DNA of 64,000 nt from a virus, in IMG/VR virus record IMGVR_UViG_3300034356_000326, positions 1 through 64,000 of that record. One strand, given 5' to 3'. Shown piece by piece: positions 2,502 through 61,738 of the stretch. The notes under the pieces were generated by a model, which saw only the letters and a program-made list of their open reading frames with translations, searched no databases and was not told the origin of the DNA. Numbering within the stretch: the first letter of the stretch is position 1; every line of letters begins with the position of its first letter. Position numbers and translations under genes: made by a program.

Positions 2502-2527
2502 TTTTTCACAATTAAATATAAAGCAAA

Positions 2528-5903: not shown

Positions 5904-7802
5904 ATGTCTTGTTCTTCTTGCTATCCTAATCCTAATCCTTGTTACACTGCATATTATCAACCTGGTCAAAACTGTGGTTGTTGTGGTGGTGTAGTGGGTG
6001 ATTGTGGATGTGTTGGTACTGCTGGCACTGCTGGCACTGGTGGCTGGGGCTGCTGGTGTGGTGCTACAGGCTGTGCAGATGCTCCTTATAATAGTAATAA
6101 TACTGTCTATGTTGGACCTAATCTTCCTAACTCAGGTGTTAACACTTGTGACACTTTAACCACTGCATTAGAAAAAATTGACTATGTAGTAACAGGTGGT
6201 GGAGGTGGTGGAAAAAATGGAACATCAGGAACTAGTGGAACTCCTAGTACAAGTGGTTCTTCTGGAACCTCTGGTTCTTCTGGCTCTAGTGGTGTAACTG
6301 GTGCTCAAGGTGCTGCTGGTGTAAATGGTACAGCAGGTTCTTCTGGTACATCAGCTTTGTCTGGTTCTTCTGGATCTTCTGGAAGTTCAGGAACTGCTGG
6401 TAAAAATGGTTCTAGTGGTGTTGATGGTAGTTCTGGAATCAGTGGTAGTAGTGGTACAAGTGGAAATTCAGGATCAAGTGGTAATAGTGGTACAAGTGGT
6501 ACTGATGGCTCTAGTGGAACAGCAGGAACAGCAGGAACAGCAGGAGCTGACGGAGCTAATGGAAGCAGTGGCACAAGTGGTCAAAATGCAACCAGTGGTA
6601 CAGCAGGACTATCAGGTGATAAATATGCTACAACATCAGTTAGCTCATTTACACTAGGAAGTGGAGGTACAATTACTGTTGGTACAGGACTTTCTTATAC
6701 CATAGCACAATCTGTATTAATTTCATTTAATGGATCAAACTATCAAACTTCTCCAGTTACATCTTATAACTCTGGAACAGGTGTTTTAGTTTTAGGTACA
6801 CCAAGTGCTACTGTAGGTTCAGGAACTTATAGTTCTTGGACAGTTAACTTAGCAGGAGCTGCAGGTGGTAATGGTTCTAGTGGTACTTCTGGTTCTTCTG
6901 GAACAAATGGTACAGCTGGTACTAGTGGTACGTCTGGTACAGCTGGTACTTCTGGTACTAATGGAACAACTGGCACTTCTGGAACAACAGGTACAAGTGG
7001 AACAAATGGAACTTCTGGTTCTAGTGGTACTAGTGGTACCAATGGAACAACTGGTACAAATGGATCATCAGGGTCTAGTGGATCTTCAGGTTCATCTGGC
7101 TCTTCTGGATCATCAGGTAGCTCTGGATCTTCTGGGGTTAGTGGTACTAGTGGATCTTCTGGTGTATCTAATAGTATTTCTGGTGCTACTAATCAAGTTC
7201 TTAAATATAGTAGTGCTACTTCTGCTGTAGGATGTTCTATATATGATGATGATAATTATACATCAATAGGTGGTCCTAATCCAGGATCAAGACTTAATGT
7301 ATATCTAGGTAATGGTCAACCAGCAGGAAACTATGTTGCAGATTTTGCAGGCATAGAACCATACGTTACAGTTAGAGCATTAGGTGGTAGTAATACTGCT
7401 ACATTACAATTACTTCCTACATCAGGTTATACAGCATTTATTGGTAACTATAATGGTGGAGGTGTGATAATTAGAGCAATGAATGCTGATGTGGTTACAA
7501 TTGATTCATCTGGTGTTACAGCTCCAGCATTTTTTGAAACTTCTGATATTAGGTATAAGGATGTATTAGAATGGAACCCAGAAATAAATGTGCTTGGAAT
7601 AGATGTAATTAAATTTAAGCGTACTGATATTGTAACTAATACAATTAACTATGGTTATTCAGCTCAACAAGTACAAGAAATTATTCCTGATGTTGTTAAT
7701 GAGATAGATGAAAAGTTAAGTGTAAACTACATAGCTGTTCATACATTAAAGATAGCAGCATTAGAAAAACGTATTGCAGAACTTGAAGCTAAATTAAAAT
7801 AA
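5904..7802 (+). CDS. Collagen-like tail fibre with C-terminal S74 chaperone domain
   Basis: A 632-residue modular fibre. Residues 1-57 are unusually Cys-rich (SCSSCY, NCGCCGG, CGC, GCWCG). Residues ~65-98 repeat the fibre docking segment (NNTVYVGPNLPNSGVNT). Residues ~100-236 and ~323-425 are Gly-Ser-Thr collagen-like repeats of the type GTSGSSG. Between them, residues 238-322 hold a beta-module found again in the genes at 47710 and 49795. Residues ~430-546 form a beta-rich head. From residue 547 (SDIRYKDVL) to the end lies an intramolecular chaperone domain of the endosialidase/peptidase S74 type, ending in a coiled coil (LEKRIAELEAKL); such domains trimerise the fibre and usually cut themselves off. 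It is a virion surface fibre, probably receptor-binding. Confidence 0.85.
   Translation: MSCSSCYPNPNPCYTAYYQPGQNCGCCGGVVGDCGCVGTAGTAGTGGWGCWCGATGCADAPYNSNNTVYVGPNLPNSGVNTCDTLTTALEKIDYVVTGGGGGGKNGTSGTSGTPSTSGSSGTSGSSGSSGVTGAQGAAGVNGTAGSSGTSALSGSSGSSGSSGTAGKNGSSGVDGSSGISGSSGTSGNSGSSGNSGTSGTDGSSGTAGTAGTAGADGANGSSGTSGQNATSGTAGLSGDKYATTSVSSFTLGSGGTITVGTGLSYTIAQSVLISFNGSNYQTSPVTSYNSGTGVLVLGTPSATVGSGTYSSWTVNLAGAAGGNGSSGTSGSSGTNGTAGTSGTSGTAGTSGTNGTTGTSGTTGTSGTNGTSGSSGTSGTNGTTGTNGSSGSSGSSGSSGSSGSSGSSGSSGVSGTSGSSGVSNSISGATNQVLKYSSATSAVGCSIYDDDNYTSIGGPNPGSRLNVYLGNGQPAGNYVADFAGIEPYVTVRALGGSNTATLQLLPTSGYTAFIGNYNGGGVIIRAMNADVVTIDSSGVTAPAFFETSDIRYKDVLEWNPEINVLGIDVIKFKRTDIVTNTINYGYSAQQVQEIIPDVVNEIDEKLSVNYIAVHTLKIAALEKRIAELEAKLK
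6211..6612 (+). repeat. Collagen-like Gly-Ser-Thr repeat tract 1 (fibre at 5904)
   Basis: Degenerate 9-bp repeats encode G-[ST]-[SA]-type triplets (GTSGSSG) without Pro or Lys. The DNA is repetitive enough to recombine with the other tracts of this class in the window. Confidence 0.9.
6868..7160 (+). repeat. Collagen-like Gly-Ser-Thr repeat tract 2 (fibre at 5904)
   Basis: This is the second tract of the same gene, after the beta-module. It ends in a nearly pure Gly-Ser-Ser run. Confidence 0.9.
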
Positions 7803-10054: not shown

Positions 10055-10684
10055 ATGACAGTCTTAGTAACATTAACATTAGCAGGGACAGACGTAGGTC
10101 CCTTTAACCTTTATTCAAATGTAGATGGATATACCACAGCAATAGCAAGTGGTGTATCTAGAGCTGCATTAGTAGCAGGATACAATCTTTTAAATGTGCC
10201 TGATAATGCTTCTGTTATCAGAGTACAATCTACAGGCACTTGTACAAATTATCTTGATATACTTTTAAGTGGTGCAACAACCACTACAACTAGTAGCACT
10301 TCTACTTCTACAACAACCTCTACAACCACAGCATTTGTTGAATGTATAACTGGTGATAGAAATGCACTCGCTACATGTTCTGGAGGTGAATCTGCTCCAT
10401 TCACAGTGACTGCAGGAAATACAGCTCTTATCACTCCTGGTGGATATTACTACTCTGGAACTGGTACAAGAACATATGCATGTTACATTATGGATGCTGC
10501 AAATACCACAGTTTTATATACGTTCACTTATACTCAGACAAGCATGAGTCCAGGAACTTGGGCATCAACATTACCTTCTAACATCTTATCTGCAGGTAGC
10601 TATCGCTTAAGAACAGATACAGTGAACTGTTTCACTAGCTCTGGTACATTTAGTTTAGTTGCAACTTGCAACACACCTGATTAA
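10055..10684 (+). CDS. GPF-module virion protein 1
   Basis: A 209-residue protein. Residues 1-72 (TLAGTDVGPFNLYSNVDGY, then ALVAGYNLL and RVQSTGTCTNYLD) form a module repeated at the N-termini of the proteins at 19811 and 20256. A Thr/Ser linker (about residues 75-92) leads to a C-terminal beta-domain of about 110 residues with four Cys (ATCSGG, YACYIMD, VNCFT, ATCNT) that may form disulfides. There is no enzyme motif. It is the last gene before the terminator at 10714. The shared N-terminus suggests docking to a common virion site and the variable C-terminus suggests different ligands; both are inference. Confidence 0.65.
   Translation: MTVLVTLTLAGTDVGPFNLYSNVDGYTTAIASGVSRAALVAGYNLLNVPDNASVIRVQSTGTCTNYLDILLSGATTTTTSSTSTSTTTSTTTAFVECITGDRNALATCSGGESAPFTVTAGNTALITPGGYYYSGTGTRTYACYIMDAANTTVLYTFTYTQTSMSPGTWASTLPSNILSAGSYRLRTDTVNCFTSSGTFSLVATCNTPD
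10274..10333 (+). repeat. Thr/Ser linker repeat in GPF-module protein 1
   Basis: A 60-bp low-complexity ACA/ACT/AGC tract encodes about 18 consecutive Thr/Ser residues, joining the GPF module to the C-terminal domain. Confidence 0.85.
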
Positions 10685-47709: not shown

Positions 47710-49770
47710 ATGGCTAACATTACTTGTAATGCACAACAGTGCCCAATTATACTAGATAGCACCTGCGTTTTCTACGAAGGTCCTAACTTGGTATTTAGTG
47801 GTATTAATACTAATGACAATTTACAAACTGTAATACAGAAGATTAATGCTGCATTTGCTACAAATGGCTATGGTACGTCAGGTACTTCTGGAGCTAGTGG
47901 CACATCTGGCAGTTCTGGTAGCAGTGGTAAATCTGGTACAAGTGGTACGTCTGCATCTTCTGGTTCCTCTGGATCAAGTGGTACGTCTGGTAAATCTGGA
48001 ACATCAGGTACTTCTGGTAGTTCAGGCTCATCAGGTACTTCAGGTTCTTCTGGATCGAGTGGTACATCAGGTTCATCTGGAACATCTGGTTCATCAGCTA
48101 CATCTGGTTCATCAGGCACTGGAGGAACTAGTGGATCTAGTGGCACATCAGGTAGCTCTGGTCTTGCTGGTGATAGATATGCTACCTTCTCAACTACACC
48201 TTTTACTTTAGGTAATGCAGGTACAATAACAGTAGGAACTGGCTTAGCATACACAGTGGGTCAATCTGTGCTCATAGCAAATAATCAATTTAATTATCAA
48301 CATAGCGTAGTTATTTCATATATTTCTGGAACAGGAGCTTTACAATTTGCAGCACCTGATGTATTAGTAGGATCTGGAACATATTCTATCTGGTCTGTTA
48401 ACCTTGTAGGTGCAGCAGGTGGTGATGGTTCTAGTGGAACATCAGGCTCTTCTGGTACCTCTGCTACAAGTGGGTCTTCTGGCTCAAGTGGTAGTTCAGG
48501 TACAAGTGCTACTAGTGGATCTAGTGGAACTAATGGAAGCTCAGGAACATCTGCATCTTCAGGTACTTCTGGCTCATCAGGTACTGATGGTAGTTCTGGA
48601 ACTGCTGGTACTTCTGGTACCTCTGGCACAGCTGGTTCTAATGGAACATCAGGAACAAATGGTACTGATGGTAGCAATGGTACATCTGGTACCTCTGGAA
48701 CAAATGGTTCATCTGGAACTGATGGTTCATCAGGTACTAATGGATCTTCTGGAACAAGTGGAACGTCTGCATCAAGTGGAACGAGTGGAACAAGTGGTAC
48801 AAGTGGAACTAATGGAACATCTGGATCGTCTGGTAAAGATGGTAGTACAGGTGCAGCTATTGCTAACTGGTATGGAGAGTTCTCTAGTACACAAACACAA
48901 CCATTGCTTGGAGTGAATACTCCTACAATATGGACGTTTGACACTACAAGTTTATCTTATGGTATTTCTGTAGTGGCTAGCTCAAGAGTAACAGTTTCAC
49001 ATCCTGGTCAATATGAATTCATCTTCTCAGCACAGGTTAGTAAAACAACATCTCCAATTGCTGAGGTACAGATATGGCCTAGAATCAATGGCTTTGATGT
49101 AGCTAATTCAAATTCATTTATAGAAATACAGCAAACAGAGGTGGAATACATTCCTACTATTGCTTATATATTTAATCTACAAGCTAATGATTATGTACAG
49201 TTTGTCTTTGCATCTGCTGATTCAACAGTTCAACTTGTTGCTAAACCTGCACAAGTTTCTCCTTATGCATCTCCAGCTGCTCCTTCAATAATATTAACTG
49301 CTAAGCAAGTGGGTGTTGCTGTTTCAGGTACATCTGGTACAAGTGGAACAACTGGCACATCTGGTACTTCTGCATCAAGTGGAACTTCTGGATCTTCTGG
49401 AACAAGTGCTAGCTCAGGTACATCAGGTACAGATGGTAGCTCAGGCACTGCAGGTACTAGTGGTAGCACAGGTACATCAGGTACTGCAGGTACGTCAGGA
49501 TCATCTGGAACTTCAGCTAGCTCTGGTAGTGATGGATCATCTGGCACTAGTGGCACTGATGGAAGTTCTGGTACGAGTGGAACGAGTGGAACTAGTGGAA
49601 CTGATGGGTCTTCTGGAACAGCAGGAACAACAGGTACAGCAGGAACAACAGGAACTAGTGGTACTGTAGGTACATCTGGAACATCAACAACAAGTCTTGG
49701 TACAAGTGGAGATTCAATCACTATACCTCCTTCAGAAGGAACTACAACTACAACAACCACTGCACCTTAA
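47710..49770 (+). CDS. Collagen-like fibre protein with three Gly-Ser-Thr tracts
   Basis: A 686-residue protein. Residues 1-55 are the fibre docking module (CNAQQCPIILDSTCVFYEG, then NLVFSGINTNDNLQTVI), matching the starts of the proteins at 4725 and 5904. Collagen-like tracts lie at about 56-152, 238-382 and 540-668. The beta-module occupies 154-238, and a C1q/TNF-like beta-domain (EFSSTQTQPLLG, GQYEFIFSAQVS, IEIQQTEVEYIP) occupies about 390-530. The very end is a Thr run (EGTTTTTTTAP). No S74 chaperone domain is present, unlike the next gene. It is a virion fibre, and its Ser/Thr-rich repeats are good candidates for O-glycosylation by the adjacent enzymes. Confidence 0.8.
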   Translation: MANITCNAQQCPIILDSTCVFYEGPNLVFSGINTNDNLQTVIQKINAAFATNGYGTSGTSGASGTSGSSGSSGKSGTSGTSASSGSSGSSGTSGKSGTSGTSGSSGSSGTSGSSGSSGTSGSSGTSGSSATSGSSGTGGTSGSSGTSGSSGLAGDRYATFSTTPFTLGNAGTITVGTGLAYTVGQSVLIANNQFNYQHSVVISYISGTGALQFAAPDVLVGSGTYSIWSVNLVGAAGGDGSSGTSGSSGTSATSGSSGSSGSSGTSATSGSSGTNGSSGTSASSGTSGSSGTDGSSGTAGTSGTSGTAGSNGTSGTNGTDGSNGTSGTSGTNGSSGTDGSSGTNGSSGTSGTSASSGTSGTSGTSGTNGTSGSSGKDGSTGAAIANWYGEFSSTQTQPLLGVNTPTIWTFDTTSLSYGISVVASSRVTVSHPGQYEFIFSAQVSKTTSPIAEVQIWPRINGFDVANSNSFIEIQQTEVEYIPTIAYIFNLQANDYVQFVFASADSTVQLVAKPAQVSPYASPAAPSIILTAKQVGVAVSGTSGTSGTTGTSGTSASSGTSGSSGTSASSGTSGTDGSSGTAGTSGSTGTSGTAGTSGSSGTSASSGSDGSSGTSGTDGSSGTSGTSGTSGTDGSSGTAGTTGTAGTTGTSGTVGTSGTSTTSLGTSGDSITIPPSEGTTTTTTTAP
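47870..48165 (+). repeat. Collagen-like Gly-Ser-Thr tract (47710 gene, first)
   Basis: Degenerate 9-bp repeats encode GTSGSSG-type triplets directly after the docking module. Confidence 0.9.
48418..48855 (+). repeat. Collagen-like Gly-Ser-Thr tract (47710 gene, second)
   Basis: Repeats of the same class follow the beta-module, with some Gly-Thr-Asp and Gly-Thr-Asn triplets mixed in. Confidence 0.9.
49325..49715 (+). repeat. Collagen-like Gly-Ser-Thr tract (47710 gene, third)
   Basis: This third tract precedes the C-terminal Thr run; its end has Gly-Thr-Thr and Gly-Thr-Ala triplets. Confidence 0.9.
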
Positions 49771-49794: not shown

Positions 49795-52629
49795 ATGCCT
49801 TATAGTAACATTACAATAACCATTCAGACAGGTCTTACGTTTATTCCTGGACAATATGTCCAAGTGATACATGATGAGAACAACTATATGTTTGGTCAAG
49901 TTGTATCATATAATTCAGGAACAGGACAATTCATATTTGAACCAGTTAGTTATTTAGGAGCTGGTACATTTACTAGTTGGACTGTTGTAACTTCAGCTGC
50001 TCCTGGTGAGGATGGAACAAGTGGTACGTCTGGAACTGCTGGATCTAGTGGTTCAACAGGAACCTCAGGTTCTAGTGGAACTGATGGTAGTTCAGGAACA
50101 AGTGGAAGTGCAGGTACTAGTGGCACTGATGGCTCTAGTGGTACATCAGCATCTTCAGGAACAAGTGGATCTTCAGGAACTGATGGTTCATCTGGAACAT
50201 CTGCTACGTCTGGATCTACTGGTACAAGTGGATCGAGTGGATCAAGTGGTTCATCTGGTAGCTCAGGTACTTCTGCTTCTAGTGGATCTTCTGGCACATC
50301 TGGAACAGATGGATCTAGTGGTACATCAGGAACAGATGGCTCAAGTGGAACTGCAGGAACTACTGGTACATCAGGTACGAGTGGTAGTGATGGTTCTTCT
50401 GGTACAAGTGCAACAAGTGGCTCATCTGGTACGTCAGCTTCTAGTGGTTCCTCTGGAACTTCTGGTTCAAGTGGTAGTGCAGGTACTGCAGGTCTTTCTG
50501 GAGACTTATATAAAACAACATCAACTACATCATTAGCAATAGGAACAGGTACAAAGAATCTTACTGTTGGTACAGGTTTATCTTACACAGTGGGACAGGT
50601 TGTAGTTCTTGCTTATGATCTAAGCAATAGCATGGGTGGTGATATTATATCTTATAATTCTGGATCAGGTGCAATGTCTGTAAACGTAACTGCTACTACT
50701 GGTAGTGGTACTTATGCAGCATGGGATGTAAACTTAGGTGGTGCTGCTGGAGGTGATGGATCTTCAGGTACTAGTGGTGCAGATGGTATTGATGGTAATC
50801 TTGCTATATGGAGATTCTCTACAAACACAGATACAAGCACAGACCCAGGTAGTGGATATTTTAGATTAAACTCTGCAACATGGGGAGCAAGCGTAACAGC
50901 AATTGCTATTGACAATCAATCATACTCTCCAAGCGTAAACTTTGGTACATACCTAGATACATTACAGAACAACTCTATTATAAAACTTGTATATGTTAGT
51001 GATAAGAATACATTCAAGATTTTAAGAATAGATGCTCTTCTTCCTAATCAAACAGGATTTGAAGAATTCACTGTAACACAATTAGGATCAGGTGGTACAG
51101 ATCCTAATGATAATGATCAATTCTATTTTGAATTTAATGGTATAAGTGGATCTTCTGGTACTTCAGGTACGAGTGGAACATCTGGCACTACAGGTACTAA
51201 TGGTTCGTCTGGTACTGATGGTTCTTCAGGAACGTCAGGATCAAGTGGAACTTCAGCATCTAGTGGTACGTCAGCTTCCTCTGGTACATCAGGTACATCA
51301 GGCACTGATGGGTCTAGTGGAACATCTGCTTCTAGTGGATCAAGTGGTACTGATGGATCGTCTGGTACTTCTGGTACTGATGGCTCATCTGGTACAAGTG
51401 GATCGTCTGGCACTGATGGATCAAGTGGTACTAGTGGTACTTCTGCTTCTTCTGGAACTAGTGGTTCAAGTGGAACAGATGGCTCTAGTGGAACAAGTGG
51501 AACAACAGGAACAAGTGGAACATCAGGTTCTTCAGGTACTAATGGAAGTTCTGGTACATCAGCTTCAAGTGGTTCTTCTGGTACAGATGGTAGTTCTGGA
51601 AAGAATGGATCATCTGGAACTAGTGCATCTAGTGGTACAAGTGGTACGAGTGGATCAAGTGGAAGTTCAGGAAGTAGTGGAAGCTCTGGAACTTCAGGAT
51701 CTTCTGGTTCTTCTGGTTCTTCAGGCTCTTCTGGAAAGGCTGGTTCATCAGGTACATCTGGAGCCAATGGAGCTACAGGTCCTCAAGGTCCAACAGGTGG
51801 ACCTGGCCCAACTGGACCACAAGGAGCAACTGGACCACAAGGTGCAACAGGTGGACCAGGCCCTACTGGTCCTCAAGGTGCACAAGGACCACAAGGTGCA
51901 ACAGGACCACAAGGACCTCAAGGTCCAGGTGGGCCTCCAGGACCAACAGGACCAACAGGACCACAAGGACCTACAGGTGTTGTTGGTGGATTGAGTCAAG
52001 GTGTACAAACATATGGTTCTGTTGTAACAACAACAGCTAATAATGGATGGGCTGGTTATCAAACAACAACAGCTGGTGTATATCATCAATTGATGTCAGC
52101 TGGTGGTGATTATGGATTGTATTCTAATAGTTATAGCTGGGGACATTATTATAGTGCTGGTAACAATGGTTGGGGTATTCGTGGAAGCACCACTGTAAAC
52201 TGGGCTGCTTGTACTACGAATGGTACAATGTATTATACATCAGAGTCTTATGCTACATATAATATGTTTGCTGTATCCTTTGTACCTACTTCTGATGTTA
52301 GACTTAAAGAAAACTTTGCTCCATTAGAAAACTCTCTTGATAAACTTAAAGGCTTACAAGGTGTATCTTATAACAGAATTGAAGATATTACTAAGAGAAG
52401 AGAGATTGGTTTTGTAGCACAAGAGGTTGAGAAAACATTGCCAGAGTTTGTACATTATCATGAAGATACAGATGTATATGGTATTGCTTATGATAAGATG
52501 ACAGCTTTACTTACAGAAGGTTTGAAAGAAGAAGATCAGAAAGTAGATGCTATAGAGGCAAGAGTCTTAACTTTAGAAGCCAAGATTGCAACATTAGAAA
52601 CACGTTTAGGTAACTTAGAAAATATATAA
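49795..52629 (+). CDS. Long collagen-like fibre with true Gly-Pro-X tract and S74 chaperone domain
   Basis: A 944-residue protein. Residues 1-72 are a copy of the beta-module used here as N-terminus. Gly-Ser-Thr repeats fill about 73-233 and 450-660. A second beta-module lies at 236-322, followed by a beta-domain ([20 protein letters not shown], about 335-445). Residues 662-729 are about 22 uninterrupted Gly-X-Y triplets ([15 protein letters not shown]), a genuine collagen pattern. A Gly/Trp/Tyr-rich head follows, and 833-944 is an S74-type intramolecular chaperone ([32 protein letters not shown]) ending in a coiled coil. It is a trimeric virion fibre. GPT triplets are known O-glycosylation sites in the bacterial collagen BclA, which fits the enzyme cassette next door. 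Confidence 0.88.
50005..50497 (+). repeat. Collagen-like Gly-Ser-Thr tract (49795 gene, first)
   Basis: GTSGSSG-type repeats link the two beta-modules of this fibre. Confidence 0.9.
51145..51770 (+). repeat. Collagen-like Gly-Ser-Thr tract (49795 gene, second, longest)
   Basis: About 625 bp of degenerate 9-bp repeats, the longest such tract in the window, run directly into the Gly-Pro-X tract. Confidence 0.9.
51778..51981 (+). repeat. Gly-Pro-X collagen tract
   Basis: About 22 triplets of GPQ, GPT, GAT, GPP and GGP type are encoded without interruption. Pro lies mostly in the X position, and Thr or Gln in the Y position. No Lys is present. Confidence 0.92.
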
Positions 52630-53084: not shown

Positions 53085-53687
53085 ATGAAAAACAAAACAT
53101 TAGTCTTTCCTCAAAAAGAAATAGATGTTCAAAACTATTATTGGTTTAAACATGGATTTGATGATAATGCATTGAATCAAATTTATCAAGATGTTGCCAC
53201 TCTTCCTTTTATGGATGCTGGGACAGGAGATGATAATATTCAGGATAAGAAGGTAAGATCATCAAAGATAAAATGGATTCCCCAAGAAGATAAGTGGGAG
53301 TGGGTATATGCAAGATTAATGGGAATGATTGTCGAAGCAAATAAATCTTTATGGAACTTTGATTTACATAGTGTATTAGATAATATTCAATATACAGAAT
53401 ATCATGCTGAGGATGGTGGACATTATGATTGGCATCAAGATCTTGGACCAGGTTGGTTATCAAGAAGAAAGATAAGCATCACTGTACAATTATCTGATCC
53501 TAGTGAATATGAAGGAGGTGAATTAGAATATTGGAAAGGTGGTCCACCTGAAAATGCAGATAAAGCACCTAAAGGAAAAGGAGTTGTATTTATATTTCCT
53601 TCATACATGATGCACAGAGTGACACCAGTTACAAAGGGAGTGAGAAGATCATTGGTATTGTGGATAGGAGGAATTCCTTTTAAATAG
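53085..53687 (+). CDS. 2OG-Fe(II) oxygenase, PKHD/prolyl-hydroxylase type
   Basis: A 200-residue enzyme. The iron triad is visible as H117-x-D119 (YDWHQDLG) and H177 (MMHRVTPV), with R187/R188 (RRSLVLWIGG) to bind 2-oxoglutarate. ISITVQLSDPSEYEGGELEY is the typical strand pair of the PKHD-type (PiuC-like) hydroxylase family. It would use oxygen and 2-oxoglutarate to hydroxylate a target side chain or small molecule. It has its own consensus promoter and runs toward the leftward operon, overlapping that operon's last gene by 8 bp at the 3' ends. Beside collagen-like fibres, a fibre-protein hydroxylase is an attractive but unproven role. Confidence 0.88.
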   Translation: MKNKTLVFPQKEIDVQNYYWFKHGFDDNALNQIYQDVATLPFMDAGTGDDNIQDKKVRSSKIKWIPQEDKWEWVYARLMGMIVEANKSLWNFDLHSVLDNIQYTEYHAEDGGHYDWHQDLGPGWLSRRKISITVQLSDPSEYEGGELEYWKGGPPENADKAPKGKGVVFIFPSYMMHRVTPVTKGVRRSLVLWIGGIPFK

Positions 53688-54771
53688 GAAGTTTAGACAT
53701 AACATCATTTACTGAAATACTCTTATGACATTCAAAATGTCTAGGAGTATTTTCATTTTCAGGACACCACATCCAGTCTCCTTTGTTAAACTTGAACATA
53801 GGATTGTTCCAACATCCATTACATACATCCTTATTAGTTATGCGTATACAGTTGTTTTGAAACTCATGGTCTTCTGTTGTGAAGTTAGATATCATAACTC
53901 CTTGCTTACCTAATCCCCAATTGAGCCAACTGATTCCACTAGATAATCCTATGTATGTATCTGCATACCACAGATAGTTCATTACATTCTCAAGAGATGT
54001 ATCTTCTAACTTCTCTGCTCCATAGTCATCTGCTTCCTGAGATAGTTCAAACACTCTATATCCTTTAATCTTTAGTGTTTGTATTAGTTCTGGCCAGTAA
54101 TACCAGTGCTTACACTGAGCTGTAGATCTAGTGGAGATACAAATATATTCATTAACTGCAGGTCTTTCTTTAGGAGTGAATGCAATCCTAGGCTGTAACT
54201 CTTCATGCTCTAAGCACAAGATATTACTAGCTGCCTGTTGTAATGGTATAGTGGCAGGATGTACAGGTTCTTTTGATTCATCCCAATACCAGCCAATCTC
54301 CATCATTGCAATTATATTAGGAACAGACTGTCCTCTTCCTACAAACTCTAATTCAGGATATACATCTTTGAATAGTTCATTCCTGAACGTGGATACAATA
54401 ACATGACAATCATACACTTCTTTAAACTTTAAACAATAGGGCATCCAGGCAATGCTATCTCCTAATGATTTACTTTCAAAAGATATAAACACTCTCTTTC
54501 CTTTCACCTCATCTAATATGTTGATTTGCTTAACTGTACGTCCTTGGTATTTGACAAAGATGGCTATGTCAGATAGATACTTTCTATTAAGTCTAGCCCA
54601 TGCTCCTGGCTTTAGTTTTGTTTCATAGATAGTTATGTGTTGATCTGTAAACATACCATCCACCTTACCTTTTCTATCTACAAACTGTATATCATACTCT
54701 CTATCTTTTCCTTCGTCTCCTGTTAGTTCAAAGTATAAACCATTAACATGGTGTAAGTTATATGTTATCAT
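53680..54771 (-). CDS. TibC-like autotransporter O-heptosyltransferase homologue
   Basis: A 363-residue protein with an N-terminal beta-rich region, then a GT9-type fold (ESKSLGDSIAWMPYC; YICISTRSTAQCKHW; ADTYIGLSSGISWLNWGLGK). The C-terminal end has four cysteines, C317-x2-C320 (CNGCW), C336 (GDWMWCPE) and C348 (HFECHKS), matching the iron-binding Cys4 end of bacterial autotransporter heptosyltransferases such as TibC. Those enzymes attach heptose from ADP-heptose to Ser in beta-helix adhesins. It is the last gene of the leftward operon (coupled by ATGA to 54768) and lies beside Ser/Thr-rich fibres, so virion-protein O-glycosylation is the best hypothesis. The donor sugar cannot be read from sequence. 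Confidence 0.78.
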   Translation of the reverse strand: MITYNLHHVNGLYFELTGDEGKDREYDIQFVDRKGKVDGMFTDQHITIYETKLKPGAWARLNRKYLSDIAIFVKYQGRTVKQINILDEVKGKRVFISFESKSLGDSIAWMPYCLKFKEVYDCHVIVSTFRNELFKDVYPELEFVGRGQSVPNIIAMMEIGWYWDESKEPVHPATIPLQQAASNILCLEHEELQPRIAFTPKERPAVNEYICISTRSTAQCKHWYYWPELIQTLKIKGYRVFELSQEADDYGAEKLEDTSLENVMNYLWYADTYIGLSSGISWLNWGLGKQGVMISNFTTEDHEFQNNCIRITNKDVCNGCWNNPMFKFNKGDWMWCPENENTPRHFECHKSISVNDVMSKLPI

Positions 54772-55346
54772 TTCTCTGTATTAAAAAAGAATGTTTGAAA
54801 TAGTCTACCATCTTGTAGATCTTTGCCAAAGTAATCCAAAGATACATGGAATAAGTCACCTCTATATAAAATAAGTCTGTTATATACATTACCTATTCTA
54901 TCTACCATCTCCCACTTTGTATAATCCATACCTTCAACATGTGGTGCTGCAGTTTTTGTTTCTTCTTCTGTATGTTCAGTATATATCCAATTCTTAAGAC
55001 CTGTTTCTTTGTGTCTAAAGATACCTGTGCCTGAAGACAAAGGAGCATCAGGAGTAAGATAGCACACACCTGCCCAATTTGTAGTGCCATCACTGTGAAT
55101 CCATGATCTATCTTGTGCTGTTGTGTATTGGAAAGCACCTGAATTATCATCTCCCCACCAAACTACATCACCTGCAAAGGGTCTAATATTATCTTGTATT
55201 ATTTGTTTAATACTATCATTTAGAAAAGACTTAGTTCTTCTACCAGGATAGTTACCAGACTCACCAAATTCTTGACTCATAGCAAACGCTCTCACCTCAT
55301 CTGGGTTATTGTAAAAGTCTGATATGGATAACATTTCTACTCTCAT
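54768..55346 (-). CDS. DUF6445-type putative 2OG-Fe oxygenase
   Basis: A 192-residue protein fitting the DUF6445 pattern: NNPDEVRAFA near the start, GNYPGRRT, then WIHSDG with H84-x-D86, WAGVCYLTPDAPLSSGTG, and a distal H167 (DLFHVSLD) with R181 (GRLFQTFFF). This is a double-stranded beta-helix arrangement with a complete iron triad, so an oxygenase is likely although the family is uncharacterised as far as I know. It overlaps both neighbours by 4 bp (ATGA), so its expression is tied to the glycosyltransferases. The substrate is unknown; amino-acid or sugar hydroxylation is possible. Confidence 0.78.
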   Translation of the reverse strand: MRVEMLSISDFYNNPDEVRAFAMSQEFGESGNYPGRRTKSFLNDSIKQIIQDNIRPFAGDVVWWGDDNSGAFQYTTAQDRSWIHSDGTTNWAGVCYLTPDAPLSSGTGIFRHKETGLKNWIYTEHTEEETKTAAPHVEGMDYTKWEMVDRIGNVYNRLILYRGDLFHVSLDYFGKDLQDGRLFQTFFFNTEK

Positions 55347-56365
55347 AAGTTGTTGTATGCGTTTATATATAATTGTCTTGTTCTGTCTGATGTATATCCT
55401 TCATTAATCTTCAGTATGTTATAATAATACTTAGCCAAGATTTTAGCTACATTGTCCCAGCTATATTCTTCACGTCTATCTAATATAGCCTGTCTACGTT
55501 CTTCATAGTTGTGTATTACATTTACAATACCATCTACCACAGACTCTGTTGTAATTTTATTAATCACATGCATACCAGGGATAGGTTTACTACCTCTATA
55601 AGTTCCCACAATAGGAACTCCACATGCTGTAGCTTCCATCAATGTTAGATTAGGATGTCCTGCTTCTAGCATAGATGGATGTACAAAGATTGTACTAGAT
55701 CTGTATAACTCTCTAGTCTCATCATCTGTAGGGTTTGTTAACTTTAAAGTTAACTTTGGATAATCCAATAGCTCAGAATGTATCTCAAAGAACTTGTTGT
55801 TATCAGGATGCCCAGCTATTGTAATAGGTAGGTTTAATAACTTAGCTGCTTCTATACCAAATCTAAATCCTTTTCTATCATATCCAGAATCACCTGCTAA
55901 TCCATTGTTAGCTAACATTAATAAAGAGTGTGGTCTTGGTGCATAGTCAGGAGTAAAGAATTCTGTATTAGCCCCATGTGGTAGATAGAATAATTTATCT
56001 GTAGCATCAAAGTAATCTATAAGATATTCAGCATGCGTAAAAGATATAATGCTATGCTTCATAGCCTCTAGGTTTTGCTTAAACACCCAGCTATCTTTAC
56101 CATACCATTCTGTGTGGTGATCATGTAGAGAGTATACATAAGGTATACCTTTATCTCTACAATATAAAGCTTGATTAGCTAAATGAGCATGAACAATTGT
56201 GTTAGGCCATTTCTCTAAGTCATTCATATATTTAACATCTACAACATGTCCTTGTTTCTCAAGGGCAACCTTATATTCCCATGTAAGCCTTTCAACAGCT
56301 CCCCATCCATTTGGTGGTATGGTGATTAGTCCTGTTGCTACATGTACTGATTTTATTGGTTCCAT
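55343..56365 (-). CDS. Glycosyltransferase family 4 (GT-B)
   Basis: A 340-residue GT-B enzyme. The N-terminal domain starts SVHVATGLITIPPNGWGAVE, the typical glycine-rich acceptor loop, followed by YVYSLHDHH. The C-terminal domain shows GDSGYDRKGFRFGIEAAKLL, then FVHPSMLEAGHPNLTLMEAT with the donor-binding pair E234 and E244 (two residues farther apart than the usual E-x7-E), and GVPIVGTYRG. It transfers a sugar from a nucleotide donor with retention of configuration. It is coupled to the DUF6445 gene by ATGA and overlaps the GT2 gene by 13 bp. The acceptor may be a growing glycan on a protein or a surface polymer. Confidence 0.88.
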   Translation of the reverse strand: MEPIKSVHVATGLITIPPNGWGAVERLTWEYKVALEKQGHVVDVKYMNDLEKWPNTIVHAHLANQALYCRDKGIPYVYSLHDHHTEWYGKDSWVFKQNLEAMKHSIISFTHAEYLIDYFDATDKLFYLPHGANTEFFTPDYAPRPHSLLMLANNGLAGDSGYDRKGFRFGIEAAKLLNLPITIAGHPDNNKFFEIHSELLDYPKLTLKLTNPTDDETRELYRSSTIFVHPSMLEAGHPNLTLMEATACGVPIVGTYRGSKPIPGMHVINKITTESVVDGIVNVIHNYEERRQAILDRREEYSWDNVAKILAKYYYNILKINEGYTSDRTRQLYINAYNNL

Positions 56366-57027
56366 TTGGTTCTAAATTTAATTTCATCAATTCTAAACTT
56401 CCTTTCTTTCTCTTCACTCATACCTCCCACATTTAATGTTTCCATATGACAGACAATAGAATGTCTTACAAGAGCATGTTTAATACCAGCCTGCTTTAGT
56501 CTTTCTGCATAGTCGTTGTCTTGATAGTACATATCAAACAACTCATCAAATGGTAAGATCTTATCTAGTGCAGACTTCTTAATCACTGTACACCAACCTT
56601 GTAATGCTTCTGTCACAGCATAAGATTCATGATACTTACTATCAGTTCCTACAAAATGATTAGGGAACCATCTAGCATATAACAATGGGTCTTTAGGAGA
56701 GAATGCTTCTATGTCTTCTCTGTAGTCATGTACCTTCATCATCTCTGAGAACCACCATCTTTCATAAGCTACATCATCATTAGATATAACCACCCAATCA
56801 CCTTGGCAATATGTAAATGCTATGTTTAAAAACTTGTTGTAGTTAAAAGAATTCTCAGGATGTATATAGTTATGAATACGTGCATACCTATTTGGATCTT
56901 GTGTACCTGAGTCTACTAATTGCACACGAAACCTAAAGTCAATCTCACTATCATGCAATGTATCTATTGTACGTTGTGTCAGAGCCACATTAGTGCTATC
57001 TGTTAATATGATTACATCTATTGTCAT
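56353..57027 (-). CDS. Glycosyltransferase family 2 (GT-A)
   Basis: A 224-residue GT-A enzyme with the usual order: an N-terminal beta-strand (IDVIILTDSTNVALTQRTID), a nucleotide-binding strand with D39, the metal-binding DDV at 84-86 (VVISNDDVAYERWW), an acceptor loop (LQGWCTVIKKSALDKI) and the late YYQDNDYAERLKQAG general-base region. It is soluble, with no membrane anchor, and short for the family because it has only the catalytic domain. It overlaps the upstream gene by 4 bp and the next by 13 bp. It probably adds one sugar in the pathway encoded by this operon. Confidence 0.88.
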   Translation of the reverse strand: MTIDVIILTDSTNVALTQRTIDTLHDSEIDFRFRVQLVDSGTQDPNRYARIHNYIHPENSFNYNKFLNIAFTYCQGDWVVISNDDVAYERWWFSEMMKVHDYREDIEAFSPKDPLLYARWFPNHFVGTDSKYHESYAVTEALQGWCTVIKKSALDKILPFDELFDMYYQDNDYAERLKQAGIKHALVRHSIVCHMETLNVGGMSEEKERKFRIDEIKFRTKWNQ

Positions 57028-59687
57028 TTCTTTCTGAATGATTTATGTGTATTGTCTATTAAAGAAAATCCATCTGCTTGGGTAGTAAGTCTTTTCTTAA
57101 CCATTCCCATTTGAGGCCCTGCAAAGATACTATTAAAATACATATCAGCAGCATCCCATTTGTGTGTTCTTAAGTTGTTCTTTAAAAACTTAGCTGCCTC
57201 TTTTGGAAACATAATAGATTGTAAACCAATGATATGATTGGTTACATACATTTCATTATTGATATCTTTAACAATAGGTGATTGTGGCCAGCCATGTTCT
57301 AGTGTATCAGCATCTCCAAAAGACATATAGTTTATGTTGTTTGGTACCAATAAGTGTGCACATTCCTCAACTTTTCGTACGAAAAAGTGTATGTCTGTCT
57401 CAATGATACAATCTCCTTCACACACCATTAAGAAGTCACAATCATGAAACTCTGTTAAGATGGCATTCTTAAATGCTTCGTAGCATCCATAATGTGCTGG
57501 GGTAAGTGCAGTGCCATACTGTTGAATTTGTTGCTCATTGAAGAGTTCCATTGAAACACAATCTGGTCTGAGACAGTTATGCTTGGGTGGTAATGACTTA
57601 TAGGGCTCGTTAAACTGTATGACATATTCCCAGCCATGGTCTTTGACTCTTTCAAGGGATGCTCTACTTTGTTGTTCTCTTTCATCATTTAATGTGGTTT
57701 GTATATGAACTAATTTAATCTTAGGTCTTTCGTTCTTCCATTCAAACTTTCCTGTGTGTTGGTACTTATGTAAGTTATCTTTGGTCAGCTTAAACTCTTC
57801 CAACTTATATTGAACATCTCCATCATAAAAATCCATTTTAATATCTATAGGATCTCCTTTGAATTCAAACTGATAAACAAGTTCATGGTTCTTAGCTGGT
57901 ATTATTCTTTTCCACATGTAATCTTCAATAGATACATAGATGTTTCTATAGTCTCTGTTATATGTAAAGAAGTAGAACACATAATTGTTTGGTTTTCCAA
58001 CAACAGGGATGATAGAATAATACTCACTATTTGATGCTACACCTAATCCACTGTGAACTAACAAGGTATCCTTATCATTAGTAACTAACTGTATATCATT
58101 TGGGTTGAAGCTAAAGATAACCTTTGACAAATAGTCTTCTAGATAGTTCTCACATCTTCTTCTCTTACACACTTCGTTCCATTCTTCTGGTGTACGCACA
58201 TCATCAAACTCTTTCAAGAAGAAGTCTGTGTCAAACATAATACCATTGGTCTGAATTCCCTTACCCTGTGGAGTGGGTAGGGTAGCAGCATATAACTTTT
58301 TATCTGTTCTGAATGCATCATTTACTGCAGGGATATCTCTAGGATCTAATACAACATCATATGTAGTATAGAAGAACCTCTTAAACCCAAGCTCTTTAGC
58401 AACCTTAGCTGCATTAAATATATTAGTTAAGACAGTCAATGACTGGTTACTATTCTTCAATCCATTGATGTTGATCTCAGCAAAGTAGTCTGGTCTGTCA
58501 TTGTAAAACCTGGTGTAATAACTGTGATGAGTCAAAGGATTATGCACATCGTATATATAACAATCCACCATGTTTTGAATGTCTATATCTACAGGATAGT
58601 GAGACACTAGTATAATCTTTCTACCCAATGGTTTAAGACTATTGATAGTATCCTTAGTCCATTGAATCCTATCCTTAATGTTTGGATAGGTGCCTAAGAT
58701 GATACACTCTTCTTCCATTACATCTAAGTTTAATTTTTTGATAATATTGGTAGCATCACTACCAAGATCTCCAGTTAAATAAACCATGTTCTCTTCATTG
58801 TTATATTTGTTACAGTATACATCTAGATTATACATCACTTTGATCAAGTCATCATATTCCATGGCTTCTTTAATAGCAATAGGATTTAACTCCTTGTTAC
58901 CTCTATCTCCCTTTGATGGAAAGAAGAATACATCACATGCTTTTAAGAAGTCACTTACATCATCACGCTCTCCCCAGACAACACAGTTGTTTGGTTTATT
59001 AGCCATCAGTGGCTTCCAATAATTCTCAAAGTTACCTGCTTGGTTACCTAGGAAGTGAAACTTCACCTTATAGTTCTTAAGTCTTTCTGCTAGTTGAAAT
59101 GCATAAGCTTGATTCTTTCTAGGTGTAAATAGTCCTACAGTTACAAAGTGTTTGTATTCAGGATCTAAGCCATAGTCTTTTTGTCTTTCTACTTTATTTC
59201 TAACCTTCTTATCAATAGGATATTCAATTACTTCTGTAGGTACATCTAAGTCTATGTATTGGAATGAGTTGTAAGAGCTAACAAATATAAACTTGTCAGG
59301 CATCCATCTCTTGTGCTTAGGATTGAATGAGCTGTCATGCGTAGTCTCTGATATCTTCCAAGTTCTATTATCTGAATAGATGAATGCAGAAAGCTTGTCG
59401 TCCATGAACATCTCAGGAAACTCTTCCATCACTATAACATCTGGATTGAACTGTTCAATAATTCCAGACAGTTCACCATACTTATCTTCTCCTAAAGAAT
59501 GGAAGTTAACTCCTTCTGTAAGCATTTGAATGATCTTGTTTCGCTGTACAACAAATGACCATGCTAGAAATGAATACTCTACCACCTTAATTTCAAAGTA
59601 ATCTTTTAACAGTTCCACTTTGTTTACTGTTACCTGAGGAGCCCCTCCTGTTGATAGGTGAGGAGTGATTATTAATAGCTTTTTCAT
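57024..59687 (-). CDS. Three-domain glycosyltransferase fusion
   Basis: An 887-residue protein with at least three parts. Residues 1-310 are GT4-like (LLIITPHLSTGGAPQVTVNK, GLFTPRKNQAYAFQLAERL, FFPSKGDRGNKELNPIAIKE). Residues ~325-640 begin with EECIILGTYPNIKDRIQWTK and contain FFYTTYDVVLDP near 438, a GT-A-like nucleotide region. Residues ~660-887 look like a GT25/LPS-type transferase: KLVHIQTTLNDEREQQSRAS, ALTPAHYGCYEAF and the metal motif C-E-G-D near 756-759, with GDADTLEHGWPQ later. GT25 is the family of animal collagen galactosyltransferases, but the similarity here is weak. It is the largest gene of the operon and could add several sugars in sequence. Confidence 0.75.
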   Translation of the reverse strand: MKKLLIITPHLSTGGAPQVTVNKVELLKDYFEIKVVEYSFLAWSFVVQRNKIIQMLTEGVNFHSLGEDKYGELSGIIEQFNPDVIVMEEFPEMFMDDKLSAFIYSDNRTWKISETTHDSSFNPKHKRWMPDKFIFVSSYNSFQYIDLDVPTEVIEYPIDKKVRNKVERQKDYGLDPEYKHFVTVGLFTPRKNQAYAFQLAERLKNYKVKFHFLGNQAGNFENYWKPLMANKPNNCVVWGERDDVSDFLKACDVFFFPSKGDRGNKELNPIAIKEAMEYDDLIKVMYNLDVYCNKYNNEENMVYLTGDLGSDATNIIKKLNLDVMEEECIILGTYPNIKDRIQWTKDTINSLKPLGRKIILVSHYPVDIDIQNMVDCYIYDVHNPLTHHSYYTRFYNDRPDYFAEININGLKNSNQSLTVLTNIFNAAKVAKELGFKRFFYTTYDVVLDPRDIPAVNDAFRTDKKLYAATLPTPQGKGIQTNGIMFDTDFFLKEFDDVRTPEEWNEVCKRRRCENYLEDYLSKVIFSFNPNDIQLVTNDKDTLLVHSGLGVASNSEYYSIIPVVGKPNNYVFYFFTYNRDYRNIYVSIEDYMWKRIIPAKNHELVYQFEFKGDPIDIKMDFYDGDVQYKLEEFKLTKDNLHKYQHTGKFEWKNERPKIKLVHIQTTLNDEREQQSRASLERVKDHGWEYVIQFNEPYKSLPPKHNCLRPDCVSMELFNEQQIQQYGTALTPAHYGCYEAFKNAILTEFHDCDFLMVCEGDCIIETDIHFFVRKVEECAHLLVPNNINYMSFGDADTLEHGWPQSPIVKDINNEMYVTNHIIGLQSIMFPKEAAKFLKNNLRTHKWDAADMYFNSIFAGPQMGMVKKRLTTQADGFSLIDNTHKSFRKK

Positions 59688-60383
59688 TTATGTAAATCTC
59701 TTTTTGTATGGATTATCAATTGTCTGATCTTCTACTGTAATATTTAAAAAGTTAAAACCTTGTAATGGACCACTAAGATACCCTATCTTGCCTGAAAAAA
59801 AAGTATTAAATGCAAGGCTTATTCTAGTTTTATCATCACTTGTTGTTGGAACACTATGTTCTGTAGTAGATGGGAATAGAACAATATCTCCTTTATTTAC
59901 AGGGAAATAAGCTTCAACACAAGTATACATGTTTTGTTCTTTTGCCTGTATTTGTAAATTATTAGGCAATGCTCTTCCAAACATTATCTTATCTGTATTC
60001 TTATCTGCATTGAAATATAAACATCCACTAATTATACTGTTTGGATGATGGTGCTGATGATGTGATTGTTCTTTCTTTGTGTAATTAAACCAAGACTGAG
60101 TTATAGATAATTTAAGTCCTTCTGGATTTATAGGATTATACACGTTTATCAAGTAATCATTAAGAATGGACTCAATGAATAGTTTTACATTACTAAGTTT
60201 AGGATTGTTTAAAACATACAAATTGTGTGTTGTAGAGTTTGATGAATTTCTAAATACATCACTTTCATACTCATATGCACATTCTATTTCTTCATTAGTA
60301 AAGTCTCTATTGATGTTATTTAATAAAACAGGGATAGGGAAGATTGGTACTATTACTCCTCCTTGGTTTTGTTGTTCTGACAT
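59688..60383 (-). CDS. 2OG-Fe(II) oxygenase, tail-associated type, HxH variant
   Basis: A 231-residue protein of the putative 2OG-Fe(II) oxygenase family 5 type, often seen in phages. After TQSWFNYTKKEQSHHQHHHP the first iron ligands are probably H111-x-H113, so Asp of the usual HxD is replaced by His. NSIISGCLYFN, GDIVLFPSTTEHSVP with distal H176, and TRISLAFNTFFSGKIG with R187 complete the fold. The natural variation HxH is known in this family as I recall it. It is adjacent to the fusion glycosyltransferase (no gap) and 1 bp from the next gene. It may hydroxylate a virion protein, sugar or nucleotide; the operon favours a modification role. Confidence 0.82.
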   Translation of the reverse strand: MSEQQNQGGVIVPIFPIPVLLNNINRDFTNEEIECAYEYESDVFRNSSNSTTHNLYVLNNPKLSNVKLFIESILNDYLINVYNPINPEGLKLSITQSWFNYTKKEQSHHQHHHPNSIISGCLYFNADKNTDKIMFGRALPNNLQIQAKEQNMYTCVEAYFPVNKGDIVLFPSTTEHSVPTTSDDKTRISLAFNTFFSGKIGYLSGPLQGFNFLNITVEDQTIDNPYKKRFT

Positions 60384-60384
60384 A

Positions 60385-61311
60385 TTATAAATTATTATTG
60401 ATTGCGTGAATTACTTGTTCTACAGATGGATGACATTCAAAAGTTTCTTTCTTCTCTAAGCATCCTATTAATGGTTGTACATAATCTATTGTTGGCCAAT
60501 ACTCAAGAGCATATTTCATATTAGAATTACAATGTAATCCACAACCTCCTCTTACATATATGTGCTTGCCTTCTTGTCTATGTGGTGTACGAAACTCTGG
60601 ATTGATAGGAGATCCTAACTCAACAATGTCAGTTTTGGTTGTGCCTGCTAGATGTAGAATACCTGAGTCCATGGTGATAACAACCTTAGCATTGTTAATG
60701 AGATGCCAAGTTTGAGCGATGGATGTCTTATTCATAAGGTTTATAACGTTATCGTCCATCTTATGTACAGGTTTGTTTACATTAAAGAATCCTGTCTCAG
60801 AACTATCCTTACCAACTGCCACCACTTTGTAGCCCCATTTATTTAATTCATCAACTAGTTTAAGCCAGTTCTCTTGTGACCAAGTTCTATTGGGCCAGCT
60901 ATTAACAGGATGTATCACAGCATATCTACCCTCTACAGAAACATTAGGTTCTTCTGTAGGCTGATAGAAACATTCTAATTCATCTTTTCCAAGCATAAAT
61001 CCTAGATGTATAGCATGGAACTGCCTAATATCCATCATGTTGTGCTTCATCTCTATACCACGCTCATCTTTCTTACCCACTAGATAGAATGAATTATGTA
61101 TAATGTAATTACTTTGTATGTACGTCATGTCTATAGAGCTAGCTTTGTAGCTCTTTTCTACATAAGGGTTCATCTTAAACAACTCAGGCATCTGAGAGAT
61201 GACTATAATCTTTCTTTGATACGCATCATGAAGCTTTTTAATAGTGGGGGTGGCACAGATAAGATCACCCAATCCATTACATTCTTCTAGATTTAAACAA
61301 ACTGGTTTCAT
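60385..61311 (-). CDS. Glycosyltransferase family 9 (heptosyltransferase-like)
   Basis: A 308-residue protein if started at the ATG at 61311; a longer ORF to 61473 would run through the promoter region and the neighbouring gene's start, so I reject it. The GT9 pattern is clear: NLEECNGLGDLICATPTIKK at the N-terminus, VIHPVNSWPNRTWSQENW in the linker, and TMDSGILHLAGTTKTDIVEL for nucleotide binding. A Cys-rich end (GGCGLHCNS, GCLEKKETFECHP) partly resembles the Cys4 end of the TibC-like protein. It is the first gene of the leftward operon, so it and six others are probably expressed from the promoter at 61329-61360. Confidence 0.83.
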   Translation of the reverse strand: MKPVCLNLEECNGLGDLICATPTIKKLHDAYQRKIIVISQMPELFKMNPYVEKSYKASSIDMTYIQSNYIIHNSFYLVGKKDERGIEMKHNMMDIRQFHAIHLGFMLGKDELECFYQPTEEPNVSVEGRYAVIHPVNSWPNRTWSQENWLKLVDELNKWGYKVVAVGKDSSETGFFNVNKPVHKMDDNVINLMNKTSIAQTWHLINNAKVVITMDSGILHLAGTTKTDIVELGSPINPEFRTPHRQEGKHIYVRGGCGLHCNSNMKYALEYWPTIDYVQPLIGCLEKKETFECHPSVEQVIHAINNNL

Positions 61312-61360: not shown

Positions 61361-61369
61361 ATTTTTACT

Positions 61370-61738
61370 ATGAAAATTGAAGTTTCTGTGGGGGAAGTTG
61401 TAGACAAATGGACTATACTTTCTATCAAAGCTCTGAACATTACAGACAAAGACAAACTAGTTAATGTTTTCAAAGAGAAAACTTATCTAAATGATGCTGT
61501 ACATCCTGAGATATTACATGATCCTTTGACAGACATGTTGCTTGAAGTTAATAAAGCTCTTTGGAAAGTGGAAGATCTTATAAGAGACTTTGAAAGAGCT
61601 AATAGTTTTGGAGAAGAGTTTATTGATTTAGCTAGATCTGTCTACAAGTTGAATGATAAAAGAGCACATATTAAAAAAGAAATTAATATTAAGTATGGGT
61701 CTGACTTTGTAGAGGAGAAATCCTACCAGCCCTACTAA
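61370..61738 (+). CDS. DUF6165-like protein
   Basis: A 122-residue protein. The conserved-looking start KIEVSVGEVVDKWTILSIKA fits the DUF6165 family (VEVSxGExxDKxTILxIK), so ATG 61370 is chosen over the longer frame that begins inside the neighbouring gene. The rest is a charged helical hairpin (VNKALWKVEDLIRDFERANS; RAHIKKEINIKYG). There is no catalytic motif or membrane helix. Family members often lie next to glycosyltransferases or surface-glycan genes, and here it is divergent from the glycosylation operon, sharing its promoter region. It may regulate or assist that pathway, but its function is unknown. Confidence 0.75.
   Translation: MKIEVSVGEVVDKWTILSIKALNITDKDKLVNVFKEKTYLNDAVHPEILHDPLTDMLLEVNKALWKVEDLIRDFERANSFGEEFIDLARSVYKLNDKRAHIKKEINIKYGSDFVEEKSYQPY

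Follow-up and report, generated by a model that had tools for sequence, protein, structure and literature searches.

Why would a phage carry a run of glycosyltransferase and oxygenase genes directly beside genes for collagen-like fibres? The question is raised by IMG/VR virus record IMGVR_UViG_3300034356_000326, a fragment of 101,652 bases, whose bases 1-64,000 form the window. A sequence-only reading of this DNA had proposed that eight genes hydroxylate and O-glycosylate the virion's own fibres, and we found all eight open reading frames (ORFs), here called A to H, at the same positions (Table 1). Our analysis makes it likely that the cassette is a virion-fibre maturation system, combining Ser/Thr O-glycosylation of Gly-Ser/Thr tracts with probable prolyl hydroxylation of Gly-Pro tracts; the phage would then probably mature its collagen-like fibres much as animals mature collagen.

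A glycosyltransferase operon beside collagen-like fibres

Seven of the genes form a leftward run, H-G-F-E-D-C-B, from 60385-61311 down to 53680-54771, with neighbouring genes separated by at most 1 bp or overlapping by up to 13 bp, so that the tight operon described earlier is confirmed by the ORF coordinates and junctions. Gene A lies on the plus strand immediately 3' of the fibre genes and is therefore treated as part of the fibre unit, not of the glycosyltransferase operon. The order H-F-(E)-D-B is repeated across dozens of viral contigs, and the core operon consists of a GT9 enzyme (H), an 887-aa multi-domain glycosyltransferase (F), a GT4 enzyme (D) and a TibC-like enzyme (B); E and the oxygenases vary in presence among relatives of this core.

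Both Gly-X-Y fibre genes noticed beside the operon match Pfam Collagen, and two more fibres lie elsewhere in the record. All four exceed the Pfam Collagen cut-off, with a putative triple helix, and together encode 357 Gly-X-Y triplets, in which Ser occurs 316 times and Thr 193 times; 19 Pro lie in one block of fibre 2, which ends in a confident Peptidase_S74 chaperone domain (PF13884, 3.8e-16). In the Gly codons of the tracts bases 1 and 2 are invariant while base 3 varies (1.41 bits), indicating that the repeat is held by selection on the protein. The tracts contain few Lys (0-3 per fibre), for which reason a lysyl-hydroxylase reading was rejected and an animal-like hydroxylysine/GT25 route is unlikely.

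Gene B is a TibC/Aah-family enzyme

Judged by its sequence, B is a member of the TibC/Aah protein O-glycosyltransferase family. It scores 231.6 bits against NCBIfam TIGR04414 (autotransporter O-heptosyltransferase, Aah/TibC), for which the cut-off is 200, and matches the TibC crystal structure 4rap with an E-value of 1.2e-40; by Pfam it has only a weak GT9 match. Equivalents of the TibC catalytic Asp110 and of the sugar-site residues Thr226, Lys230 and Trp305 are invariant in our alignment of B, and the four-Cys iron finger is kept (B Cys317, 320, 336 and 348 correspond to TibC Cys339, 342, 358 and 370). The position of TibC Pro300 is Ser in B, as in AAH. The earlier guess of a TibC-type enzyme was thus right in kind, and the five glycosyltransferase genes then listed all stand, four of them (D, E, F and H) by Pfam and B, weak by Pfam, by NCBIfam and the PDB.

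Residue roles have been defined in TibC, which heptosylates Ser of adhesins and needs Arg286 to do so (PMC4358343). Two observations count against a simple transfer of this activity to the phage: the sugar-site Arg286 is not conserved in our alignment of the phage enzymes, being Val in B and Val or Thr in most of them, and TibC modified Ser, not Thr (PMC4358343). With Arg286 lost, the donor, and perhaps the acceptor too, may differ from that of TibC; we accordingly claim neither the name heptosyltransferase nor a heptose donor. B also has collagen-type fibres as neighbours, where the definition of the TibC/Aah family looks for an autotransporter partner.

Of the remaining glycosyltransferases, H has weaker matches to lipopolysaccharide (LPS) heptosyltransferases and to TibC and is kept in relatives. 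An AlphaFold2 model of F, with a predicted local distance difference test (pLDDT) score of 83, comprises a GT4/GT-B half (aa 1-320), a GT-A domain (325-545), a beta domain and a second GT-A domain (655-887). The GT-B half matches GT4 enzymes in Foldseek at 1e-12. F also matches COLGALT1 (2.6e-9), and the collagen enzymes COLGALT1 and LH3 are both among its best 50 PDB matches, each with a low template modelling (TM) score, while viral GT25 proteins match one GT-A-sized stretch. The model therefore suggests a second GT-A domain that is GT25-like by fold only; a GT25 assignment by sequence was rejected, as this C-terminal domain has no Pfam or PDB sequence match. We found 56 viral relatives of F.

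TibC-like genes accompany Gly-Ser/Thr tracts

A search for the family, started from ten TibC-like proteins, gave at least 586 viral loci, of which the best 80 were kept. Among these, every locus with full flanks (28/28, forming 21 groups at 97% identity) has a Ser/Thr-rich Gly-X-Y gene within 10 kb, whereas neither a TibC-like gene nor a Gly-Ser/Thr tract occurs in any of 96 random viral loci, which are shorter on average. Relatives with the operon but without Ser/Thr-rich fibres, which the sequence-only reading had itself named as contrary evidence, were looked for and none was seen in the 28 loci. The pairing crosses independent phage lineages. In Microcystis phage Mel-JY01 a gene with a TibC-like domain lies a short distance downstream of a frame of 1016 aa that contains 202 triplets, and in a 735-kb phage (L076) the TibC-like domain is fused to a D-type GT4 and adjoins F and a Gly-Thr-Ser gene. 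There is an exception to the rule: in LR756504, another huge phage, no Gly-Ser/Thr tract lies within 15 kb of the TibC-like gene.

Two features of the deposited Mel-JY01 annotation (PP395634.1) are worth recording: an antisense ORF (739-2298) is placed over the Gly-Thr/Ser fibre frame (2-3049), and the nearby gene that contains the TibC-like domain is annotated as 'methyltransferase FkbM'.

Among 23 crAss-like records of at least 50 kb chosen by a backbone structural gene, the tract pattern is present in 11/11 with a TibC-like gene and 5/12 without (one-sided hypergeometric p about 0.003 by our own arithmetic). The five tract-only exceptions are records of at most 74 kb and probably fragments, one of them identical to the phage studied here at the backbone gene. 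In two long relatives, of 118.8 and 93.5 kb, there is neither a run of at least six Gly-X-Y triplets nor any member of the A-H families, so that operon and fibres are absent together. In the reverse direction the pairing is weaker: a TibC-like gene was found in 7 of 16 long virus records picked by their tract, compared with 0 of 18 random records, and in 10 of 104 short tract-bearing stretches. That more than half of the long Gly-Ser/Thr records show no TibC-like gene weighs against the pairing, although many of these records are fragments; the stronger proposition, that every Gly-Ser/Thr tract requires a TibC-like gene, is unsupported by these counts.

The association extends to cellular genomes. 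Of 18 bacterial or archaeal loci encoding TibC-like homologues, 15 have a Gly-Ser/Thr gene in their flanks by our own count. We also scanned whole bacterial genomes for DNA encoding an exact (Gly-Ser/Thr-Ser/Thr)6, and ten had any match: in nine, no match is further than 10.5 kb from the one TibC-like gene (in six, none is further than 1.3 kb), and in the tenth (G004) a long Gly-Thr-Ser tract lies at 58607-58785 of a contig (C22) other than that of the TibC-like gene. A reversed control pattern also matched in two bacterial genomes.

A recurrent bacterial module pairs the TibC-like gene with an adjacent small ORF, which begins like a signal peptide or lipoprotein and encodes a (Gly-Thr/Ser-Ser)n tract. 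It was seen in Methylococcaceae (L160, L162, L163, L164, L171) and in other Proteobacteria (L158, L161, L167, L169, L170), and the small ORF resembles a secreted acceptor that is accompanied by a glycosyltransferase of its own.

One half of what had been proposed, that the virion's own Gly-Ser/Thr fibres are O-glycosylated, is thus well supported at the level of sequence, both by the 28 paired loci and by the operon-free relatives that lack the fibres.

Oxygenase genes accompany Gly-Pro tracts

The three 2-oxoglutarate (2OG)-Fe(II) oxygenases of the sequence-only reading fared unevenly. A (PF13640) and G (PF13759) are such enzymes: the HxD...H...R residues of A (H117, D119, H177, R187) are invariant across 15 homologues, its profile matches PiuC (2e-11) and an algal prolyl 4-hydroxylase (P4H; 4e-6), and G has invariant His111, His113, His176 and Arg187. 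C is a DUF6445 protein whose 2OG identity is unconfirmed, because it offers only an HxD...H-like motif, with no 2OG family in Pfam, no PDB match and an hhalign profile-profile probability of 0.6%; a structure model built from a seven-sequence alignment reached a pLDDT of 40. Many relatives carry the glycosyltransferase core without any oxygenase. Hydroxylation and glycosylation look like two separable modules, with the oxygenases accessory, rather than the single system first envisaged.

We compared the presence of A, C or G with that of at least four Gly-Pro triplets in 47 non-redundant loci with a visible fibre. Both traits are present in 11 loci, oxygenase alone in one, Pro alone in one and neither in 34 (Fisher 8e-9, uncorrected for kinship), and the oxygenase-positive loci always include A. 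Where relatives lack an oxygenase, their tracts are nearly devoid of Pro. Both traits change seven times each on the TibC tree, and of five supported independent contrasts 4-5 are concordant and about 0 opposed. A separate sample points the same way: an A-type gene occurs in 9 of 118 viral loci found through Gly-Pro-X DNA, often 0.4-3 kb from the tract, and in 1 of 96 random loci (Fisher 0.025), the sole positive random locus being also the sole one with a Gly-Pro tract. None of the 118 loci has a TibC-like gene. The separate samples therefore agree that TibC-like genes go with Gly-Ser/Thr and A with Gly-Pro. Because oxygenase presence follows Gly-Pro triplets, not Gly-Ser/Thr tracts, we infer that the Gly-Pro-X tract is hydroxylated, as a caution in the sequence-only reading had allowed, and that A is probably a prolyl-hydroxylase-type enzyme acting on Gly-Pro-X.

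Several observations weigh against this assignment. The Gly-Pro threshold of 4 was picked after the data were seen, the sign test on the tree reaches only p 0.06-0.125 as a rule, and fibre and oxygenase may travel as one cassette. Mel-JY01 has Gly-Pro with no A, C or G nearby, and locus L118 has A with a fibre, cut by the contig end, that lacks Gly-Pro. Pro is mostly in the X position of the tracts, whereas animal P4H acts on the Y position. A reviewed Bacillus P4H does act on both X and Y prolines (PMC8968730). Finally, A-type oxygenases of cyanophages adjoin tail fibre genes without collagen repeats, which led us to reject the broader idea that all A-type oxygenases serve Gly-Pro fibres.

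These cyanophage loci, the underpowered sign test and a DUF6445 homologue lying between GT11 and GT25 genes in S-SSM7 speak for another explanation, in which fibre glycosylation is right but the oxygenases act on glycans, the host or an unrelated tail substrate, the Gly-Pro link reflecting no more than co-moving cassettes. This explanation is a serious one, if rather doubtful in our view: it sits poorly with A being tied to Gly-Pro genes in viruses that have no TibC-like gene, with A occurring alone beside very short (L032, L044) or differently written (L125) Gly-Pro blocks, and with the near absence of tract Pro from oxygenase-free relatives.

In the cyanophage and pelagiphage loci (L267-L270) the A-type genes belong to clusters of 2-5 oxygenase genes, next to genes for tail fibres or baseplates that have no collagen repeats.

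Other possible substrates for the cassette

The glycosyltransferases could instead remodel host LPS or capsule against superinfection, with the fibres nearby only as part of a host-recognition island. GT9 and GT4 are indeed typical LPS enzymes, and the same role has been proposed for glycosyltransferases in pelagimyophage host-recognition islands (PMC7029224). We nevertheless consider this unlikely, as it leaves unexplained why B belongs to a protein O-glycosyltransferase family, why all full-flank viral loci pair a TibC-like gene with a Gly-Ser/Thr gene, why relatives without the operon also lack the tracts, and why several bacteria have a TibC-like gene adjoining a small secreted tract protein. 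Hydroxylation and glucosylation of phage DNA to escape restriction, a known T4-type logic in which 2OG oxygenases and glycosyltransferases co-occur, was rejected as scarcely credible, given that the record fragment has no thymidylate-synthase- or hydroxymethylase-type gene, that the oxygenases are not Tet/JBP by Pfam (a further Tet/JBP search was null, though lacking a working control) and that B is a TibC-family protein glycosyltransferase.

A proposed maturation pathway

For fibre maturation, our observations comprise the identities of the genes, the catalytic residues, the conservation of the operon, the repeats encoded by the fibre genes and the co-occurrence patterns. From these we infer every reaction, the sequence of steps, the residues acted on, the sugars attached and the advantage to the phage, which tempers the proposal. 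Fibre chains would be made in the host cytoplasm late in infection, and B, perhaps with H, would add the first sugar to Ser, perhaps Thr, at many sites per chain; F, D and the accessory E would then extend or branch it. Where a fibre has a Gly-Pro-X block, A, often with G and C, would hydroxylate its proline. The resulting trimeric shafts would be coated with O-glycans that could stiffen a proline-poor triple helix, shield it from proteases, or alter contacts with receptors or antibodies. Thr glycosylation stabilises collagen helices according to Bann et al., as cited in PMC3368898, which makes stability of the proline-poor helix the most economical benefit; protease protection and receptor tuning are equally open.

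A more general rule can be put forward only tentatively, at slightly less than an even chance: TibC-family enzymes would be dedicated Gly-Ser/Thr O-glycosyltransferases and P4H-type enzymes dedicated Gly-Pro-X hydroxylases, with phages combining both to make animal-like collagen in the bacterial cytoplasm, the whole being widespread and overlooked in phages and some bacteria.

Other features of the record

The partial major head protein, the phrog_37948 protein and two giant ORFs in the window (4145 and 1744 aa) suggest a crAss-like phage, a label of our own rather than a formal classification. Further glycosyltransferase genes lie beyond the range covered earlier (record 71549 and 72637), in a second small cluster (record 71549-73392) in which two GT2 genes flank a hexapeptide-acyltransferase-like gene. 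A 338-aa protein (record 66118-67134; phrog_4417, unknown function) has the look of a glycosyltransferase (DCDVIFTD) and lies near the operon in many relatives. Mucin-like Thr/Ser runs (TTTTTSTSTSTTTT) occur in several structural proteins, often at linkers or C-termini (window 2528-3688, 8518-10032, 10055-10684 and 14228-19789; record 67137-67649), and are possible further O-glycosylation sites. Matches of A, C and G in PHROGs bear names such as 'ferrochelatase', 'DNA endonuclease (V)' or 'minor coat protein', which were probably transferred to these 2OG-oxygenase and DUF6445 families from neighbouring genes by mistake.

Table 1. Features of the phage record; positions are those of the window unless marked as record positions.
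Feature	Position	Strand	Evidence and remarks
Major head protein, C-terminal part	75-614		
Distant collagen-like fibre	5904..7802	+	PF01391 1.2e-28; 78 Gly-X-Y triplets, weak S74 end
Virion structural protein	14228-19789		phrog_37948
Collagen-like fibre 1, proposed acceptor	47710..49770	+	PF01391 2.7e-44; 99 Gly-X-Y triplets, 0 Pro, 99 Ser, 63 Thr
Collagen-like fibre 2, proposed acceptor	49795..52629	+	PF01391 5.7e-52; 134 Gly-X-Y triplets
Gly-Pro-X block of fibre 2, proposed hydroxylation site	51769..51993	+	Within fibre 2
A, 2OG-Fe(II) oxygenase, PKHD/prolyl-hydroxylase superfamily, proposed prolyl hydroxylase	53085..53687	+	PF13640 2.5e-15; fibre unit
B, TibC/Aah-family protein O-glycosyltransferase, 363 aa, proposed initiating enzyme	53680..54771	-	TIGR04414, 4rap
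C, DUF6445 protein, possible oxygenase	54768..55346	-	PF20043 8.2e-14; HxD...H-like motif; accessory
D, GT4	55343..56365	-	PF00534 7e-10; core operon
E, GT2	56353..57027	-	PF00535 2.9e-5; accessory, found in only some relatives
F, multi-domain glycosyltransferase, 887 aa	57024..59687	-	PF00534 1.7e-9; core operon
G, 2OG-Fe(II) oxygenase	59688..60383	-	PF13759 3.6e-21; accessory, up to several copies in relatives
H, GT9, 308 aa from ATG 61311	60385..61311	-	PF01075 7.8e-17; core operon
DUF6165 protein	61364..61738	+	PF19662 1.6e-11; divergent from operon, adjoins operon in relatives too
Fourth collagen-like fibre	record 64973-65941		Pfam Collagen match

Comparison with known systems

We found no paper on a phage TibC-type or collagen-modifying system in the open-access literature, and one phage protein is already named 'Glycosyltransferase Aah/TibC' in a database; the parts are known, and as far as that literature shows the combination is new. 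A 2012 study of prophage collagens held that the prolyl hydroxylases required for collagen are missing from bacteria and viruses (PMC3368898), and according to a 2022 review phage collagen amounts to only some 18 residues within capsid proteins (PMC8968730). The phages described here, in contrast, have Gly-X-Y triplets by the hundred and, next to them, an operon dedicated to modification. If our reading is true, it would account for the stability of a nearly proline-free collagen-type fibre. Hundreds of phage TibC-like genes, and part of the large set of phage 2OG oxygenases, would gain a function, and collagen that is glycosylated, perhaps also hydroxylated, could be made by a bacterial route complete in itself. 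As a cultured phage (Mel-JY01) and cultured bacteria (Methylobacter) carry the TibC and Gly-Ser/Thr pair, the glycosylation part is directly testable.

Mycobacteriophages offer a precedent for virion glycosylation, in that phage-encoded glycosyltransferases of actinophages glycosylate the phage's own capsid or tail proteins; we know of no collagen repeats, TibC-family enzyme or oxygenases in those systems. The closest relatives of B itself are the bacterial autotransporter heptosyltransferases (BAHT) TibC and Aah (TIGR04414; PMC4358343), with which it shares family, catalytic Asp, sugar-site Thr, Lys and Trp, and iron-finger Cys, as well as hyperglycosylation of a repetitive surface adhesin, which for the phage enzyme is predicted only. 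They differ in that the TibC/Aah partner is a beta-helix autotransporter and the phage partner a collagen-type Gly-Ser/Thr fibre, and in that B is phage-encoded, has Arg286 replaced and Pro300 changed to Ser as in AAH, and is accompanied by further glycosyltransferases.

Bacillus BclA likewise forms O-glycosylated bacterial collagen-type filaments, and a Bacillus P4H acts on the X and Y positions of collagen-like peptides (PMC8968730), but BclA belongs to the spore surface and not a virion, has no reported TibC-family enzyme, and carries a Gly-Pro-Thr tract in place of the phage Gly-Thr/Ser-Ser. Mimivirus is a parallel among viruses, encoding collagen together with a 2OG hydroxylase (L230) and glycosyltransferases, including a collagen glucosyltransferase (PMC9546862, PMC8968730). 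It is, however, a giant virus of eukaryotes in which Lys is hydroxylated and the hydroxylysine then glycosylated, whereas the phage infects bacteria, and its tracts are of Ser/Thr (and Pro) and come with a TibC-family enzyme.

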